From Thermosediminibacter litoriperuensis (GTDB taxonomy: Bacteria; Bacillota; Thermosediminibacteria; Thermosediminibacterales; Thermosediminibacteraceae), in the NCBI RefSeq assembly GCF_008124715.1, contig NZ_VNHO01000004.1, forward strand, positions 1 through 64,000: a stretch of 64,000 nt of DNA, read 5' to 3'. A program made the translations under genes and the position numbers. Below the pieces are notes generated by a model that searched no databases, was not told the DNA's origin, and saw only the letters and a program-made list of their open reading frames with translations. The stretch's first letter is position 1. Each line of letters begins with the position of its first letter. Shown here piece by piece: positions 50,119 through 58,808 of the stretch.

Positions 50119-52629
50119 TTACACAGCCGACCTTCCGCAGCACTTCTTGTACTTCTTTCCGCTGCCGCAGGGGCACGGGTCGTTCCTGCCTATTTTTTCG
50201 CCCTTTTTCACGGGCTGGGGCTTTTCACCATCCCCGTGGGAGTATGAAAGATTGCGGGCCATTTCCCGCCTCTGGGGTGCTGTTTTCAGCTGCACCCTGA
50301 ACAGGTACCTCAGCGTATCCTCCTGGATGTTCTTAATCATCTCCTGGAACATCTCGTAGCCTTCGATCTTGTATTCCACCAGCGGATCCCGCTGCCCGTA
50401 AGCCCTTAGGCCGATTCCCTCGCGGAGCTGGTCCATGGCGTCGATGTGGTCCATCCATTTCTGGTCCACAACCTTGAGCATTATCACTTTTTCCAGTTCC
50501 CGCATGGTTTCCTCGCCGATTTCAGCCTCTTTCCGGTCGTAAGCTTCCAGTGCCCGGTCCACCAGCAGGCGCCTGATTTTTTCCCTGGTCACCTCTTCGG
50601 GATTGATCGCGTCAAGGACGCCCTTTATGGTAAATATATCCGCATAGTATTCGGCCAGGCCCTTCAGATCCCACTCTTCCGGGTGGATTTCCCTGCCGGC
50701 GTATATGTCCAGCAGCCCATTCACTACATCTTCTATCATCTGCTTTATGCTGTCCTTCAGGTTTTCCTGTTCCAGGACCTTGCGGCGCTGGGAATATATT
50801 ACTTCCCGCTGGGTATTCATGACATCGTCGAATTCGAGCACGTGCTTTCTTATATCGAAGTTCCTTGCTTCCACCTTCTTCTGGGCATTTTCTATAGCCT
50901 TCGTTATGAGAGAATGTTCTATAGGCTGGTCATCCTCCAGGCCCAGACGGTCCATCAACCCCCTGATGCTGTCGGAGCCGAAAAGCCTCATGAGGTCATC
51001 TTCCAAGGAAACGTAGAACCTGGAAGAACCGGGATCGCCCTGGCGGCCCGAACGGCCCCTGAGCTGGTTGTCGATACGCCGCGCCTCGTGCCTCTCGGTG
51101 CCGATTACGTGCAGCCCTCCCAGTTCCGCCACGCCTTCGCCCAGCACGATGTCGGTACCGCGCCCGGCCATGTTGGTGGCGATTGTTACCGCTCCCCGCT
51201 GGCCCGCCTTTGCGATTATCTCGGCCTCTTTCTCGTGGTACTTGGCGTTCAGCACCTGGTGCGGAATCCCTTTTTTCTTCAGCATCTCGCTCAACATCTC
51301 GGATTTTTCTATCGATACTGTACCTACCAGCACCGGCTGGCCTCTCCGGTAACACTCTTCGATTTCGCGGACCACCGCCTGGAATTTGGCCTTTTCGGTT
51401 TTGTATATTACGTCCGGATAATCCACCCTGATCATCGGTTTATTGGTGGGTATCACCACCACGTCCATGCCGTAGATCTTCCTGAACTCCTCCTCCTCGG
51501 TGGCGGCGGTACCCGTCATGCCGGAAAGTTTCCTGTACATTCGGAAGTAATTCTGGAAGGTTATGGTGGCAAGAGTCTTGCTCTCGCGTTCCACCTTTAC
51601 TCCTTCCTTGGCCTCGATAGCCTGATGCAGGCCTTCGCTGTACCTGCGGCCGTACATGAGCCTTCCGGTGAATTCGTCGACTATTATAACCTGACCATCT
51701 TTTACCACGTAGTCCCTGTCCCTTTTCATGAGGGCGTGGGCTTTCAGGGCCTGGTGGAAATGATGCAGGAGCTCCATATTTTCTTCGTCGTAAAGGTTGC
51801 TGACCCCCAGGAATTCCTCGGCCTTTTTTATCCCCTTTTCGGTGGGTATCACGCTGTGGGCCTTTTCGTCAACGATATAGTCCTCACCCGGTTTTAACCT
51901 GGGTACAAAACGGGCAAACTTATAGTAGATGTCCGTGGATTCCTCGGCCTGACCTGAAATTATTAGAGGGGTACGGGCTTCGTCTATGAGTATGCTGTCG
52001 ACTTCATCGATGATGGCGTAGTTCAACTCCCTCTGGACCATATGTTCCTTATAAATCACCATGTTATCCCTGAGATAGTCGAACCCGAACTCGTTATTTG
52101 TACCGTAAGTTATATCCGCGTTGTACGCCCTCTTTCTCTCCTCGTAATCAAGCCCGTGGACTATCAAGCCCACTTCCAGCCCGAGGAATTTGTAAATCGC
52201 CCCCATCCACTCGCTGTCGCGCCGGGCCAGGTAGTCGTTTACAGTAACCACGTGCACCCCCCGCCCGGTCAGGGCGTTCAGGTAGGCCGGCATTGTAGCC
52301 ACGAGGGTTTTCCCCTCACCGGTTTTCATTTCAGCTATTCGTCCCTGGTGCAGCACAATGCCCCCCATCACCTGGACGTCAAAGGGCCTCATGCCCAGGG
52401 TCCTCTTTGCCGCCTCCCTGACAACAGCGAAAGCCTCGGGCAAAAGGTCATCCAGGGTCTCGCCGGCGGCCAGCCTGTTTTTAAACTCGTTGGTCTTTTC
52501 TCGAAGCTGGCTGTCAGAAAGCACCTTAATTTTGGATTCCCAATCGTTCACCTTTTCCACTATGGGGGTTAACTTTTTTATCTCTCTATCGTTGGAATCG
52601 CCGAATATCTTTTTCAAGACCCCTAACAT
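50119..52629 (-). CDS. secA: Protein translocase ATPase SecA
   Basis: The motor that pushes preproteins through SecYEG. Visible are Walker A in [11 protein letters not shown] near residue 102, the NBD1 motif [19 protein letters not shown], the preprotein-binding domain, NBD2 with [15 protein letters not shown] and [15 protein letters not shown], and the C-terminal zinc finger [14 protein letters not shown]. Length 836 is typical of Firmicutes. TTGAGGTGA precedes the ATG. Followed by prfB, a common Firmicute order. Confidence 0.97.
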
Positions 52630-52663: not shown

Positions 52664-52688
52664 AAGGAACCTTTATCACAGGTTCCTT
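52664..52688. terminator. Hairpin between the HD-GYP cassette and secA
   Basis: AAGGAACC and GGTTCCTT pair around a nine-base loop. The plus strand has TTTTTA after it, the minus strand ATAAATTTTTT, so it probably ends the leftward cassette transcript before secA, though not strongly. Confidence 0.5.
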
Positions 52689-52693
52689 TTTAT

Positions 52694-53272
52694 TCATCTT
52701 CCTATTATTTTACCACTTGACGGCTTCTTTTTCAACATAGCATCCTGAACCAAAAAGAATATTCCCGCCGCCATCAACAGGTCGCCAATACTGAACACCC
52801 GGGGTCTCGGATACGGCCGGGGCAGAGGGATGATATCCCCGAGAAGCGCCAACCGGGTTGAGGAAGTCAGGGCGGTATGGTACAGGTAATCGGGATTGAA
52901 TAAGTCGGACTTGAACTCCTGAAGGCCTGCCGCATCGACAGCCCAGAGGGATACCGGCATTTTGCCGCCGTTGGCAACTATGACCAAAAAGTTCATCAAT
53001 ACTCCGATGGCAGCCGCCCTCAGCGGCTTTATATGCCAGTTTGAAAATAGGCCGGATAACAGCAGCGTATAGGAAATTATTGAAATTGCCATTATGTAAT
53101 TTGAAGCGAATTCTTTAAAGGGACCTTTTAAAAACAGCGGCGCGTACCGGATAATGAACGAGAGAAATATGAGCTCCAGCCTTCTCATGGGAATTTCGGT
53201 CAGGCCCTTTAAATTTCCCCTTCTTAAAAAACCTATTATAAATGAAATCACCATGAAATCAATTAACAGCAT
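52694..53272 (-). CDS. DUF5317 family membrane protein
   Basis: A 192-residue protein with about five membrane helices (LIDFMVISFIIGFLRRGNLKG; LELIFLSFIIRYAPLFL; IMAISIISYTLLLSGLF; AAAIGVLMNFLVIVANGGKMP). DUF5317 has no known function. Its start overlaps the end of the HD-GYP gene by 14 bases, so the two are translationally coupled, and it ends the four-gene cassette. Confidence 0.82.
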   Translation of the reverse strand: MLLIDFMVISFIIGFLRRGNLKGLTEIPMRRLELIFLSFIIRYAPLFLKGPFKEFASNYIMAISIISYTLLLSGLFSNWHIKPLRAAAIGVLMNFLVIVANGGKMPVSLWAVDAAGLQEFKSDLFNPDYLYHTALTSSTRLALLGDIIPLPRPYPRPRVFSIGDLLMAAGIFFLVQDAMLKKKPSSGKIIGR

Positions 53273-54518
53273 CTTTCCAGATTTTCTCCCTTTCCAAGAC
53301 TTTTTTTAACGCTTTAATTACAGCAGGTCGAAACTGCACTCCGGAACTTCTTTCCAGTTCATCCAGAGCATCTTCTAATCTCCACGCTTTCCGGTACGGC
53401 CTGTCCGTCGTCAGGGCGTCGAACACATCAGCTACGGCTATTATCTCTGCCCCCAGCGGAATTTCCTCACCCTTCAACCCCACCGGATAACCGCTTCCAT
53501 CCATCCTCTCATGATGGTACATAATAAAAGAAGAAGCTTGAGCCAAAAAGTCCACGTTTTTCACGATACTAGCCCCCAATGCGGGATGGGTTTTTATTTT
53601 GGAGAACTCATCTTCAGAGAGTTTACACGGTTTATTCAAGATTTCCTCTGGAATCCCTATTTTGCCGATGTCATGGAGTAATGCCGCATACTGTAAATTG
53701 CTGATAAAATCGCTATCCATTTTGAGTTCTTCCGCTATAGCTACTGCCAACCTGGCGACCCTCTCGGAATGCCCTCTTGTATAAGGGTCTTTAGCTTCTA
53801 TAGCTGTGGCTAATGCCTGAATTGTTTCCAAATATACTTTTTTCATTTCCATATAGAGTTTGAAAGAGTGGCGGGCAACTAGGAGGGGGATAAGAAATAA
53901 AAGTAAGCCTAAAGCCCCAATGTTAATGTATATAATGGCTAATAAAATACCTAAAGGGGCAAGGGCTATGTAATTGGGTAGAGCCCATTTGAAAGTAGTT
54001 GAAAAAATATATTTGATCGATTTCTTGTATAGTATAGACAATCCTATTGTCAATAAACCAACATTAATTAAGAAGTATGTTAAAATCAAAGCCAAGAATC
54101 CAAACAAATTTTGTTGAAGGTTTATATATCCAGGAACCCCTCCTAATCTTTCATAAATTAAACCAGAGCCACCCACCATGACTATATATAATCCAATATT
54201 TGTAATCTTCTTGAAAAAAGTATGATAAGGTATTCTATGTCTTATCTCACATAACAGTTCCGACATAAAAGCGACCCAAATACTCACTTCATACCCTAAA
54301 ACAAGTATGGATCCGATAAATACCGCGAAACCTACAGTCACTTCAGCATCATTTACTAATCTTACAGACAATGTCTCCGCTAAAAGAGCAAGAATAGTGA
54401 ATATAATAAAAGTCTTAATGTCTGCCGCTAATAAAGATTTATAAGAATATATCAAAAATAACGTGGCAATTAATAGTATTATTAAAAAATATAAATTTTG
54501 TTTGTTAAGCTTTATCAT
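53259..54518 (-). CDS. Membrane HD-GYP cyclic-di-GMP phosphodiesterase
   Basis: The first 225 residues form about seven to eight membrane helices, a probable sensor of the MASE type (VRLVNDAEVTVGFAVFIGS). The rest is a complete HD-GYP domain: HSERVARLA, the metal pair in LLHDIGKIGIP, HHERMDGSGYP (the GYP motif) and DVFDALTTDRPYRKAW. Such proteins hydrolyse c-di-GMP, or in some cases cGAMP. What the membrane part senses is unknown; the 28-residue hydrophobic peptide encoded 73 bases upstream is a tempting candidate ligand. Confidence 0.92.
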   Translation of the reverse strand: MIKLNKQNLYFLIILLIATLFLIYSYKSLLAADIKTFIIFTILALLAETLSVRLVNDAEVTVGFAVFIGSILVLGYEVSIWVAFMSELLCEIRHRIPYHTFFKKITNIGLYIVMVGGSGLIYERLGGVPGYINLQQNLFGFLALILTYFLINVGLLTIGLSILYKKSIKYIFSTTFKWALPNYIALAPLGILLAIIYINIGALGLLLFLIPLLVARHSFKLYMEMKKVYLETIQALATAIEAKDPYTRGHSERVARLAVAIAEELKMDSDFISNLQYAALLHDIGKIGIPEEILNKPCKLSEDEFSKIKTHPALGASIVKNVDFLAQASSFIMYHHERMDGSGYPVGLKGEEIPLGAEIIAVADVFDALTTDRPYRKAWRLEDALDELERSSGVQFRPAVIKALKKVLEREKIWKDAVN

Positions 54519-54591
54519 TTTATGTCACCCATAAATTGTTTAAAATATATTGAAAAAAATTAAATAAAAGGGCCGACTGAAATCAATAGTA

Positions 54592-54678
54592 TTAACCAAA
54601 CTTAAAATTAGCACCGCCGGCAAGGACAAGAGCCATCAATGCCAGCAATATCTTAACCAGAGCAGCATTGAGTTTCAT
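54592..54678 (-). CDS. 28-residue hydrophobic peptide upstream of the HD-GYP gene
   Basis: Behind a strong GGGAGGAGG site, ten bases from the ATG, lies a short gene. The product starts MKLNAALVKILLALMALVL and ends AGGANFKFG: a short basic start, one hydrophobic helix and a small polar tail after Gly-Gly. This shape fits a secreted or membrane peptide, or a pheromone precursor. A longer in-frame version (from 54783) has no ribosome site and an unlikely basic/Cys-rich start. Flanked by the 220-residue protein and the HD-GYP gene on the same strand. The function is unknown. Confidence 0.55.
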   Translation of the reverse strand: MKLNAALVKILLALMALVLAGGANFKFG

Positions 54679-54775
54679 TGGTCTACAGCCTCCTCCCTGT
54701 CTACGGTGCTCTGCTCCGCCGCTATTAGAGCAGGCCATAAAAACCGCTTCGCTTCTGTCGGCCCTTTTAATCATT

Positions 54776-55438
54776 TTAATCATTTTTTTCTTTTACTAGA
54801 AAACTTATCCGGCGGTTGACAGCGTTTAGCACCGCCAGAACGACACTCTCTGCTTTATCCTGCCGGAAAAGAGCTGTTCCCAGAAAGGACTCCTCACTCC
54901 CGTCCATCAGTATGGATATAAGTACGGCGATAGCCTCCTTATCGCCAATTCTAAAGATATTAATATCCTCCAGGGAGATTATAAAATTCTTGCTCAAATA
55001 CTGCTGAATGGCATCGATGGCGGCGAGAGCGACAAGCCTTAAAAAATATTTATAAGATCCGGCACCTGAGGCTCTGCCTTCGTATACCTTGCCATCGGTG
55101 CATTTCAAGGTTACCGTAATCTCATAGCTGTAATTGGTTTTTTTCACATCTATGCTATCTATCTTCAAACGGGATTCCGCTACATAAAGCTCCTCTTTGT
55201 TAAGCTGAGCCACACTTATTTTCTTGTGATCTATTTCTGAACCGAAAGTCGCAACCAGTGCTGACTCGATATCCCTTACTATTTGTTTGGGATTCCTGTT
55301 GGAATTGGCCAGAACGTGGATCTCGGAAATCTTTCCATCGGGATTGGTTATAATCTTTGCGGAGACGATATCTTTAATCTTTTTTATAACTTCCTCATAG
55401 TGCTTGATGATCTCGTCTCTGTTCAGGTTTTCCGACAT
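54776..55438 (-). CDS. Uncharacterised 220-residue protein, first gene of the HD-GYP cassette
   Basis: A soluble, mixed alpha/beta protein. The N-terminal half (KIITNPDGKISEIHVLANSN, RDIESALVATFGSEIDHKKI) has the strand-helix order of a small ferredoxin-like or KH-like domain; the C-terminal half (VTLKCTDGKVYEGRASGAGS, LVALAAIDAIQQYL, KEAIAVLISIL) looks like a dsRBD/LeuA-dimer-type fold. No catalytic motif is recognised and I do not know the family. GGAGGGATG-type ribosome site. It starts the operon leading to the peptide, HD-GYP and DUF5317 genes. Confidence 0.75.
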   Translation of the reverse strand: MSENLNRDEIIKHYEEVIKKIKDIVSAKIITNPDGKISEIHVLANSNRNPKQIVRDIESALVATFGSEIDHKKISVAQLNKEELYVAESRLKIDSIDVKKTNYSYEITVTLKCTDGKVYEGRASGAGSYKYFLRLVALAAIDAIQQYLSKNFIISLEDINIFRIGDKEAIAVLISILMDGSEESFLGTALFRQDKAESVVLAVLNAVNRRISFLVKEKND

Positions 55439-55512: not shown

Positions 55513-55540
55513 ATTAAAAAAATAGCCCTTAACGGGCTTG
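55513..55540 (-). terminator. Terminator of the liv operon
   Basis: AGCCCGTTAAGGGCT hairpin followed by ATTTTTTT on the leftward transcript, directly after the livF stop. Confidence 0.85.
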
Positions 55541-55541
55541 T

Positions 55542-56246
55542 TTACATTCCCATATATGCTTTCTTAACAAGATCACTTTCCAGCAGTTCCTTTCCCGTAC
55601 CCTCGGCCACAATCCTGCCGGTCTGAAGGACGTATCCCCTGTCCGCCATCTCCAGCGCTTCCTGCACTTTCTGTTCCACCAGCAGTATCGTCATGCCCCT
55701 CCGGCTTATTTCTTTAAGAATATCCAGTACCTTATCGACCAGGATAGGCATAAGCCCCAGGGACATTTCGTCCACCAGGAGCAGTTTGGGCCTTGACATC
55801 AAGCCCCTGGCGATGGCCAGCATCTGCTGTTCTCCGCCGGACAAAGTCTCCGCTTTTTGGTTCTCTCTTTCTTTAAGGCGCGGAAAGATTTCATACACTT
55901 CCTCCAGGACCTTTTTAATATCTGTATCACTTTCCAGGGTATAGGCCCCGAGGAGAAGGTTATCCCGGACTGTCATCTTGCCGAAAACGTGCCTGCCTTC
56001 CGGCACATGGGCAATGCCGAGTTTTACTATCTCGTGAGCGGGCATCCTGTCTATCCTCTTGTCTAAAAATTCAATTTCACCGGAAAATGGCTTTAAAAGT
56101 CCCGAGATCGTCTTCAATATGGTGGTTTTACCGGCCCCGTTGGAGCCCACAATGGAGACCATTTCCCCTTCCCGGACTTCAAAGGATACGTCAAATATGA
56201 CAGGTACGCCGTCATACCCCGTGCTCAGATTTCTTACTTTTAGCAT
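55542..56246 (-). CDS. livF: Branched-chain amino acid-type ABC transporter ATPase LivF
   Basis: One of two ATPases of a HAAT-family importer. Walker A GSNGAGKTT near 35, signature LSGGEQQMLAIARGLM, Walker B LLLVDEMSLGL and the H-loop VEQKVQEAL. Length 234 is standard. Its ATG overlaps the end of livG by 35 bases. Confidence 0.93.
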   Translation of the reverse strand: MLKVRNLSTGYDGVPVIFDVSFEVREGEMVSIVGSNGAGKTTILKTISGLLKPFSGEIEFLDKRIDRMPAHEIVKLGIAHVPEGRHVFGKMTVRDNLLLGAYTLESDTDIKKVLEEVYEIFPRLKERENQKAETLSGGEQQMLAIARGLMSRPKLLLVDEMSLGLMPILVDKVLDILKEISRRGMTILLVEQKVQEALEMADRGYVLQTGRIVAEGTGKELLESDLVKKAYMGM

Positions 56247-56967
56247 GATATCTTTCCCCCAGATAAGCTTTAATTACCTCTTCATTACTGGTAACTTCCT
56301 CAGGAGAGGCGTCGGCAATCTTTTTGCCGGCGTTTAATACCACGACCCTATCAGAAATTGGCATAATGGCTTCCATTATATGTTCCACAATTAAAAGGGT
56401 AATTCCCCTGTTTTTCAGATTCAGACAGAGTTCCATGGCTTCCTTTATTTCAGTCTGGTTAAGCCCTGCCATCGCCTCGTCCAGCATGACCATTTTTGGT
56501 CCTGTAGCAAGGGCCCTCGCTATCTCCAGCCTTTTCTTATCCGCTATCGTAAGGCTTCCGGCCGGCATATCCTTTTTACCGGAAAGACTGGTCATCTCCA
56601 GGACTTCCTCTGCGATTTTCTCCGCTTCCTTCCTGCTGCTCGCCCGCAGAAAAGCGCCGGTAAGGACGTTCTCCTTCACCGTCATTTCCTTTAAGGGCTT
56701 TACTATCTGAAACGTCCTGGTAAGCCCCATAGCCGTAATTTCATGGGGAGGTCGCCCGGTTATATCCCTGCCCTGAAAATATATCCTGCCCGCATAAGGT
56801 CTATAGAACCCTGTTATGCAGTTAAAAAGTGTGGTTTTCCCGGCACCGTTGGGCCCTATTAGACTAACTATTTCACCCTTGTGTACGGAAAAACTGACAT
56901 CCTCGTTGGCGATCAGGCTGCCGAACTTCATGGTTACATTTTGAACTTCAAGCATCGGCTCTTGCAT
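56212..56967 (-). CDS. livG: Branched-chain amino acid-type ABC transporter ATPase LivG
   Basis: Second ATPase of the importer: Walker A GPNGAGKTTLFNCITGF, signature region AGSLTIADKKRLEIARAL (the LivG-type variant of LSGGQ), Walker B VMLDEAMAGL, H-loop VEHIMEAI. The frame is open upstream into livM, but GAGGTG six bases before ATG 56967 (MQEPMLEV) sets the start; ATG 56973 is an alternative. Overlaps livM by 20 bases. Confidence 0.93.
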   Translation of the reverse strand: MQEPMLEVQNVTMKFGSLIANEDVSFSVHKGEIVSLIGPNGAGKTTLFNCITGFYRPYAGRIYFQGRDITGRPPHEITAMGLTRTFQIVKPLKEMTVKENVLTGAFLRASSRKEAEKIAEEVLEMTSLSGKKDMPAGSLTIADKKRLEIARALATGPKMVMLDEAMAGLNQTEIKEAMELCLNLKNRGITLLIVEHIMEAIMPISDRVVVLNAGKKIADASPEEVTSNEEVIKAYLGERYHAKSKKSEHGV

Positions 56968-57946
56968 AAACATCACCTCTCCTGCGGGATCTCTTTTTCT
57001 TAAGAAGGCCGAGGATCCCGTTTGGTTCAAAACACGCCACAAAAATTATAAGCGCACCGAATATCATGAGGTCTATACCCTTGCCGGTACCTCCGAGGTA
57101 TACCCGGGTGTACTCCGACAGGGGTATCAGTATGGCAGCCCCTATGATCGGACCGTATATATTCCCCAGACCGCCGAGCACCGAAAGAAGCACGATTTTC
57201 ATGGATACTTCCAGGGTAAATACCATAAAGGGGTCGATGTAAAGAATATACTGAGCGTAAAGGGTCCCGAAAGTGGCTGTTAAAGCTGCACTCACCATCA
57301 TGGCGTACAGCTTGTACCGCGTGGTATCTATCCCCAGAGCTTCTGCAGCTTCGTGGCTTTCCCGGATAGCCTTCAGGTAAAATCCCATCTTGTTGTTCTC
57401 TATGTATCTGGCCGTCATGGTGGTGATCAAAAAAAGCACGTAGGCGATAAGGAAATATGGTATCTTGGACGAATGAAACTGCATTGAGGTAACGCTTTCC
57501 TCAACTATCGGTATCGAAATCCCCGTCGCCCCTTCGACGTAATCCCAGCTTATAAAGAGCTGCTTTATGATCTCTGCCACAGCCAGCGTGGCAATCGCAA
57601 AGTAATGGCCTTTGAGTCTGAAGCATGGATAGCTCACTATCACCGATATGACCGTCGCCAGTACGGCCCCTGCCAGCATTCCGATCCACGGAGAAATACC
57701 GAATTTGTAGAATAAAATCGTTGAAGTATAGGCACCTATGCCAAAAAAGGCTGCATGTCCGAAAGAGGTCTGGCCTGCAAAGCCGGTTATTATATTCCAG
57801 GCCTCTCCGAGCCCGGCGAAAATCAGGAAAATAACCATCACATGCCGGAAATTTATGTTTGAATTCATAAAGGGGAGCAGCAGTATAACTATAAGAATCC
57901 CGTAGAGGGTGTCAATTCTAAAATTCTTCACATTCACACCAATCAC
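56948..57946 (-). CDS. livM: Branched-chain amino acid-type ABC transporter permease LivM
   Basis: A 332-residue permease with eight to nine membrane helices. Family motifs are GLGEAWNIITGFAGQTSFGHAAFFGIGAY near residue 42, IREsHEAAEALGIDT near 190 (coupling loop EAAxxxG) and LGGLGNIYGPIIGAAIL near 255. It pairs with LivH to form the channel. Starts one base after the livH stop. Confidence 0.93.
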   Translation of the reverse strand: MIGVNVKNFRIDTLYGILIVILLLPFMNSNINFRHVMVIFLIFAGLGEAWNIITGFAGQTSFGHAAFFGIGAYTSTILFYKFGISPWIGMLAGAVLATVISVIVSYPCFRLKGHYFAIATLAVAEIIKQLFISWDYVEGATGISIPIVEESVTSMQFHSSKIPYFLIAYVLFLITTMTARYIENNKMGFYLKAIRESHEAAEALGIDTTRYKLYAMMVSAALTATFGTLYAQYILYIDPFMVFTLEVSMKIVLLSVLGGLGNIYGPIIGAAILIPLSEYTRVYLGGTGKGIDLMIFGALIIFVACFEPNGILGLLKKKRSRRRGDVYARADA

Positions 57947-57947
57947 C

Positions 57948-58808
57948 TCACCATCCGAAAAGGCCTTTCGGCCTGAACTGCAGCACCAGCAGGTATATCA
58001 AAAATACTATAGCGTATTTGAACTGGGTGCCTAGGAAAAACCCTCCTAGAGCTTCAGAAAGCCCAATCAATACCCCGCCGTAAAGGGCGCCGGCTATATT
58101 GCCGAACCCACCCAGGGCTACGATAACAAAGGCAAGGAGGCTGTAGAGGGCCCCAGATTCGGGATAAATCGGAAAAAAGGTGGCCAGCAGAGCCCCAGCT
58201 ACTCCGACGCACGCTCCCGATATTCCGAAGGTAACGGCATAAATCTTTTCCGTATTTATACCCATGAGTTTTGCTGTGTCCCTGCTCTGAGCCGCAGCCT
58301 GAATTGCCCTTCCGGTTTTGGTGTTCTTGATAAACCAAACGACCAAGAAGGTCATCATTATGCTTCCCAGAGCTGCTACCAGTTGGGGTATACCGATAAT
58401 AACGCTGCCCATCTCCAGCTTTTTATCGGTCACCAGCGAGGTGGTTATAAACCGATAGTTGGGAGTCCACAGGTACTGGGCGAAATTTCTTATAAAAAGG
58501 CTCAATCCGAAAGTCGCAAGAAGAGCCGTGAGCCCGGGCGCATTTATAACCCGCTTTATAATCAATTTGTAAGTCAGAAAGCTCAATACGAAAGTGACGA
58601 GGGCTGCAATTGGCAGTGATGCGAGAGGATCCAGCCTCAAAAGGGTGTAAAGCCAGAAAACAGTGTACATGGATACCATCAGGAAATCTCCGTGGGCGAA
58701 ATTTATGATATCCATGACACCCCATATCAGCGTCAAGCCCACAGCAACGAGAGAATAAACAAAGCCCACAAGAATTCCGCTCAAAATTATCTGCAACAGC
58801 ATATCCAT
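57948..58808 (-). CDS. livH: Branched-chain amino acid-type ABC transporter permease LivH
   Basis: A 286-residue permease with about eight helices: GLTLIWGVMDIINFAHGDFLMV near residue 25, AAAQSRDTAKLMGINT near 173 (coupling loop) and ALGGFGNIAGALYGGVLIG near 225. Separated from livK by a terminator-like hairpin at 58828-58862. Confidence 0.93.
   Translation of the reverse strand: MDMLLQIILSGILVGFVYSLVAVGLTLIWGVMDIINFAHGDFLMVSMYTVFWLYTLLRLDPLASLPIAALVTFVLSFLTYKLIIKRVINAPGLTALLATFGLSLFIRNFAQYLWTPNYRFITTSLVTDKKLEMGSVIIGIPQLVAALGSIMMTFLVVWFIKNTKTGRAIQAAAQSRDTAKLMGINTEKIYAVTFGISGACVGVAGALLATFFPIYPESGALYSLLAFVIVALGGFGNIAGALYGGVLIGLSEALGGFFLGTQFKYAIVFLIYLLVLQFRPKGLFGW

Follow-up and report, generated by a model that had tools for sequence, protein, structure and literature searches.

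Among the pheromone systems of Gram-positive bacteria, the enterococcal sex pheromones are peptides cut from signal peptides. Short peptides are also encoded within structured RNAs or act as leader-peptide attenuators, as in RNAIII/delta-haemolysin, TnaC and SecM, the last of which acts for SecA. ECF S components are membrane proteins that bind small ligands from the outside, usually vitamins and similar small molecules, and we know of no described ligand for the sensor domain MASE9. Our literature search found no mention of MASE9 together with HD-GYP, or of DUF5317. In a review of c-di-GMP inputs, the word "peptide" occurs once in the main text (PMC8846402). Thermotoga maritima, whose peptide signalling is cited in PMC6022435, offers a parallel as a thermophile with a peptide signal, which in the case described here is putative; its genome and just one other among the 14 controls contain DUF5317 and MASE9.

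Like the enterococcal and other Gram-positive pheromones, the cassette described here has a small gene whose product combines a hydrophobic leader with a short and more variable C-terminus, next to a candidate receptor gene, and the leader and tail parts likewise track different partners. It differs in that the candidate receptor is a MASE9-HD-GYP protein rather than a histidine kinase or an RRNPP protein; moreover, its peptide, a candidate pheromone on the strength of genomic covariation, lacks a lipobox Cys and has a dedicated enclosing RNA. As in RNAIII/delta-haemolysin, TnaC and SecM, the peptide ORF lies inside a folded RNA with paired ends, but this RNA has no Rfam match, is tied to one operon and encodes a peptide that covaries with a candidate receptor. 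The enzyme has the same domains and catalytic motifs as MASE9 and HD-GYP sensor phosphodiesterases, whereas many other sampled MASE9 proteins have longer frames with no peptide profile match beside them. A second MASE9 domain of the source genome lies in a 629-aa frame (G000 contig C31:10765-11295), with no peptide profile match nearby.

The window, i.e. the whole stretch of 64,000 nucleotides that was analysed, lies on contig C4 of the 2.34 Mb genome of Thermosediminibacter litoriperuensis. Homologous contigs were found in Fervidicola, Thermovorax and other Thermosediminibacterales-type bacteria, and the nearest sampled relative genome consists of one contig of 2,280,035 bases. All cassette features are on the minus strand. 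The first gene (54776-55438) encodes a LeuA_dimer-like soluble protein of 220 aa and is followed by a structured RNA leader core AGCGAAGCGG (54676-54753) and by the gene of the 28-aa peptide MKLNAALVKILLALMALVLAGGANFKFG (54592-54678), which has a hydrophobic leader, the motif LVLAGGA and the tail NFKFG. A MASE9-type membrane sensor joined to an HD-GYP phosphodiesterase (53259-54518, 419 aa) and a DUF5317 membrane protein (52694-53272, 192 aa) complete the cassette. A terminator-like hairpin of nine pairs (52664-52688) lies 3' of DUF5317 and before secA (50119-52629, Pfam SecA_DEAD), the conserved downstream neighbour; secA is probably a unit separate from the cassette in the window. The initial annotation had described four same-strand genes ending in a hairpin, a 14-base overlap of the HD-GYP and DUF5317 genes and a strong ribosome site before the tiny gene; all of these are present, the overlap at 53259-53272 and the ribosome site as the SD sequence GGAGGAGG preceding the peptide ORF. 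Its soluble protein "of unknown family" is soluble but does match a family, Pfam LeuA_dimer, and it had missed this match, the RNA element and the conserved secA neighbour. Directly upstream of the LeuA_dimer-like gene are branched-chain amino-acid ABC transporter-like genes (55542-58808), an arrangement also seen at L026 and L028; a short terminator-like hairpin (55524-55538) separates one of these, the ABC gene at 55542-56246, from the cassette.

The peptides of this family have 24-36 residues, with a [K/R]-rich start, a hydrophobic stretch, LVLAGGA and x-[FY]-[RK]-W. The class A consensus is M-x-K-x-x-K-x-L-x-A-L-x-x-L-V-L-A-G-G-A-x-[FY]-[RK]-W plus 0-4 further residues, and the distance from the GGA motif to the stop varies from 4 to 8 residues. 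The window peptide matches the profile with an E value of 3.9e-10. Across 93 pairs, pN/pS was 0.27 (pS 0.50, pN 0.14), indicating purifying selection, and since synonymous change exceeds replacement change the frame is a real gene. For a survey of its neighbourhood, 129 DUF5317 loci were gathered, a few of which duplicate one another; an HD domain protein was present at 117 of them and the same membrane domain at 112. A set of 110 loci with a membrane-type HD-GYP on the same strand was then defined, three known duplicates having been removed. At 107 of these an SD-preceded peptide ORF of 24-36 residues was found in the expected gap beside the HD-GYP gene, and two of the three peptide-less loci (L047 and L061) are truncated contigs starting inside that gene.

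Within the order, 14 of 22 sampled genomes have DUF5317, and in all 14 the LeuA-like gene, peptide, HD-GYP, DUF5317 and secA occur at one locus. Among these 14, G001 and G006 have a split secA frame. A second DUF5317, in the gene order DUF5317, peptide, HD-GYP (class B), occurs in two genomes. The cassette also occurs in Atribacteria and Aerophobetes.

The peptide profile was run on the same 398 genomes as DUF5317 (E<=1e-4, with matches inside long frames removed). DUF5317 is present in 113 of these sampled genomes of the phylum, about a quarter, and 88 of the 91 peptide-bearing genomes have it (Fisher p 7e-63); in the other three the peptide lies at or near a contig end. Conversely, 285 of the 307 genomes without a peptide match also lack DUF5317, and several of the 22 DUF5317-only genomes have divergent peptides missed by the class A profile, e.g. 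MKKFEGIKYSRIVINAIIVASVVVALTSGYKLGG. In four genomes (G152, G226, G310 and G047) DUF5317 is on a separate contig while the peptide stays with the LeuA-like and HD-GYP genes, so the tightest pair is that of the peptide and MASE9-HD-GYP. The module is real and widespread, and its peptides form a new family; that both the peptide and the RNA belong to the module is well supported. The initial annotation had set conservation of the short frame, and co-occurrence of the genes as a rule, as tests of its proposal; the 107 of 110 loci bear out the former, and the neighbourhood survey together with the genome counts the latter.

The HD-GYP domain of the window protein scores 150.9 bits against HD_5 and contains the motifs HDIGK and HHERMDGSGYP. 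Its catalytic key residues are invariant across 26 homologues and its fold matches the solved enzymes 4mcw and 9rbz; the cassette enzyme is predicted to destroy c-di-GMP or a related cyclic dinucleotide such as cGAMP. By family the membrane domain is probably MASE9 (PF20972), which was detected in 21 of the 26 homologues at E<=0.01 (best 5.8e-13), the window protein's own score being 14.1 bits, below the Pfam cut-off of 24.3. In its predicted structure (pLDDT 88.6) this domain has the fold of an ECF S component. Foldseek gave TmRibU with probability 1.00, a TM score by target of 0.68 and a weak E of 0.015, and FolT with probability 0.98, a TM score by target of 0.75 and a weak E of 1.8; the similarity is one of fold only. 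Since the usual ligands of S components are vitamins and comparable small molecules, the peptide tail need not be the MASE9 ligand.

The assignment of DUF5317 (PF17248) is clear, with 162 bits against a cut-off of 25 over positions 2-151 of the 151-position profile. Nothing in the PDB matched the fold of its AlphaFold model (pLDDT 94.3) at E<1. The idea of an LspA-like aspartyl protease had come from a pair of conserved GD sites with a spacing of 18 residues and from the lipobox-like peptide motif LVLAGG. This was rejected: no Pfam LspA (PF01252) match was found at E<=10, the hhalign probability was 1.5%, and LspA was absent from the PDB fold list. The LeuA_dimer (PF08502) match of the 220-aa protein is marginal, at 26.3 vs 24.9 bits, and was obtained for 6 of 25 homologues; the gene is present at 78 of 129 DUF5317 loci, and its product could be a sensor of a branched-chain amino acid. 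SecA is encoded at 59 of the 129 loci within the stretch fetched, with none found within the flank fetched at Aerophobetes and class B loci. At L022:8241-10752, in a one-contig genome, and at L031:5624-8134 secA is split over two frames, through either a sequencing error or a real frameshift.

The relation of the peptide to its partners was analysed by partial Mantel tests on distances at 66 loci, the test of tail against MASE9 holding the HD, LeuA-like and DUF5317 distances fixed. For the four residues after AGGA the association is with MASE9 (r 0.225, p 0.001) and not with DUF5317 (p 0.92); for the eleven hydrophobic-part residues preceding AGGA it is with DUF5317 (r 0.20, p 0.001) and not with MASE9 (p 0.82). 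Both associations persist when similar loci are removed (n = 52, 46 and 36; p 0.001-0.03), and a sliding window located the switch of partner at LVLAGGA. The effects are modest (r ~0.2), such tests can be inflated by shared ancestry and can be anti-conservative, and they were devised with the data and the peptide family already in view; the covariation is good but not decisive evidence. It suggests that the tail is what the sensor of the enzyme reads. The earlier idea of a peptide signal thus gains indirect support from this covariation, from the S-component ligand-binding fold and from tandem peptide genes in some lineages. As to DUF5317, the proposed roles of exporter or co-sensor are conjectural. 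A part in peptide handling has indirect support, as DUF5317 diverges in step with the hydrophobic leader and the peptides of one family of genomes lacking it have no hydrophobic stretch.

That family, f22, comprises five genomes in which no DUF5317 match was found anywhere, while the LeuA-like gene, RNA, peptide and HD-GYP are kept; secA follows the cassette at three of the five loci. The Trp-ending tails of its peptides (GGNYKW, GGSNYIW, GVWKW) resemble those of class A, but their best 15-residue hydropathy is 0.55-1.57 vs at least 1.97 in class A. In Aerophobetes the long-range RNA arms are absent, and several members have two or three tandem peptide genes. Such tandem genes were found at L045:24-370, with three identical 27-residue copies, and at L043, L049, L063 and L068. 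The peptide frame is broken beside an orphan class B copy of DUF5317 with no adjacent HD-GYP (L060/L115), and in one natural variant (L159) HD-GYP and DUF5317 are fused into one protein of 600 residues.

The peptide ORF of the window lies inside a long-range inverted repeat, in which the 5' arm TAAAAGGGCCGAC (54757-54769) is the perfect complement of the 3' arm GTCGGCCCTTTTA (54565-54577); the latter begins 14 nt past the stop and is terminator-like in the window. The arm sequences vary by lineage (GGGCCGAC, AAAGGACCGACAA, TTAGGTCGGTG, GGGGCGTAGATCA, TGAAGCCGGCAGT, ACCCAAACC, GGGGGGGC). Among 39 leaders less than 80% alike, each upstream arm paired with its own downstream arm far better than with those of other loci (z = 18.6, 0/2000 permutations as good), and the same pairing was recovered when 14 close relatives were folded to a consensus. 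A scan of ~0.8 Mb on both strands found no other arm-enclosed, SD-preceded hydrophobic ORF except the antisense of one element, so the enclosed peptide ORF is far beyond chance. A T-run follows 44 of 69 long arms, several GC-rich members having none; termination is thus not a universal role of the stem, and the idea that it is a terminator everywhere was dropped. From the peptide stop to the 3' arm the median distance is 12 nt, with a range from 0 to >20 nt.

The leader itself carries an AGCGRAGCGG motif and a hairpin with the loop TAGCGG. In the window this hairpin is formed by CTGCTC/GAGCAG and is followed by the SD-containing segment and the start codon. Its six pairs are 92.9% paired across 31 sequences, with 45 double-sided changes vs 13.7 in shuffles and a covariation of 0.732 vs 0.264 shuffled (0/500; no slid version >0.21). 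The 5' part of the leader pairs with the SD/start region above expectation (z = 6.4, 0/2000), so ribosome access may be controlled. The covariance model R1 of the leader matches the window, itself a model member, with an E of 7e-9 and gave 48 matches below E 1e-5 in the 398 genomes; all of those with an adjacent peptide match or an inspected locus are at this cassette, on which ground a mobile or repeated RNA was rejected. Three weaker matches that were examined (L215-L217) proved to be unrelated loci. For the window leader Rfam 15 returned only chance matches up to E 10. On leaders from five further loci it gave none, but did pick up real c-di-GMP-I riboswitches at other places in these loci; a known riboswitch, including those for c-di-GMP, was therefore discarded. 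The element, which encloses the peptide gene, is absent from Rfam. At L118, L123, L129, L155 and L160 the region upstream of the peptide contains two to four copies of an AGCGGA-type motif, possibly a protein-binding repeat.

We propose that the cassette is a peptide-controlled phosphodiesterase module for c-di-GMP or a related cyclic dinucleotide, a reading to which we give an about even chance of being correct. The small gene would encode a pre-peptide whose leader, positive and hydrophobic, ends in LVLAGGA and precedes a tail of 4-8 residues built around x-[F/Y]-[R/K]-W. This leader would carry the tail across the membrane, and DUF5317 would handle the leader by processing (possibly cleaving), inserting or releasing it. 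Once exposed, the tail, whether still tethered or free, would be the putative ligand of MASE9, and its binding would alter HD-GYP activity, in one direction or the other, and hence the cyclic-dinucleotide level. The dedicated structured RNA would control the peptide gene in response to some trigger: its AGCGRAGCGG/TAGCGG-loop leader partly pairs with the ribosome-site region, and the long-range stem closes around the gene and could act as a terminator in AT-rich members. Such control would uncouple peptide output from enzyme output. In favour of this module we count the 107 of 110 loci, the co-occurrence, pN/pS, the Mantel tests, the S-component fold, f22, the tandem copies, the L159 fusion and L060/L115; against it stand the window MASE9 score below the Pfam cut-off, the modest Mantel effects and the f22 peptides, which have no hydrophobic stretch to carry them to the outside.

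The main rivals are a membrane subunit and leader-peptide attenuation. Small regulators such as MgrB or CydX offer a comparison for a peptide that serves as a one-pass membrane subunit, regulating or stabilising a complex of MASE9-HD-GYP and DUF5317 with no released signal. The hydrophobic stretch has a suitable size, the N-terminus is positive, the helix part covaries with DUF5317, and DUF5317 is fused to HD-GYP in L159; however, f22 keeps the tail while losing the hydrophobic stretch, and tandem identical copies are commoner among ligands and signals than among subunits, so we consider this rather unlikely. Attenuation, in which translation or stalling near the peptide end would decide stem formation and hence the expression of HD-GYP and DUF5317, leaves the peptide without a later role. 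It fits the position of the 3' arm, typically within reach of a terminating ribosome, the T-runs, the strongly conserved pairing and the conserved peptide C-terminus. A single stall site, on the other hand, agrees poorly with the variable distances from GGA to stop and from stop to arm, and the armless Aerophobetes with their two or three identical peptide genes, the GC-rich members without a T-run and the covariation of the tail with MASE9 speak against it; we regard attenuation as the whole explanation as distinctly improbable, while its RNA part may be compatible with the peptide-controlled module. Very improbable, in our judgement, is that MASE9 senses a small molecule while the peptide serves as a reporter of secretion or of the state of the membrane via its secA neighbour, as SecM does for SecA. 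The Sec-type leader-like peptide and the position of secA directly downstream in many loci agree with it, but secA is missing from the fetched flanks of Aerophobetes and class B loci, a hairpin separates it in the window, and the peptide stays with HD-GYP, not secA.

If the peptide-controlled module is real, peptide signalling would be linked directly to cyclic-dinucleotide breakdown, the orphan sensor domain MASE9 would have a candidate ligand and DUF5317 a role, and structured RNAs would gain a class that harbours a peptide gene, with a reach given by the quarter of sampled genomes with DUF5317 and by the finds in Atribacteria and Aerophobetes. More tentatively, at somewhat below even, we suggest a widespread undescribed class of peptide signalling, in which [FY][RK]W-type tails would be ligands of S-component-like MASE9 sensors controlling HD-GYP hydrolysis, DUF5317 would be a dedicated maturation factor, and the new RNA class would enclose the signal gene and control its output. 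Tails of 4-8 residues are cheap to synthesise, so the main claim is testable at once.

Beside one class B cassette, a c-di-GMP-I-GGC riboswitch (L021:6113-6197, E 5.5e-15) was found upstream of another HD-domain gene.
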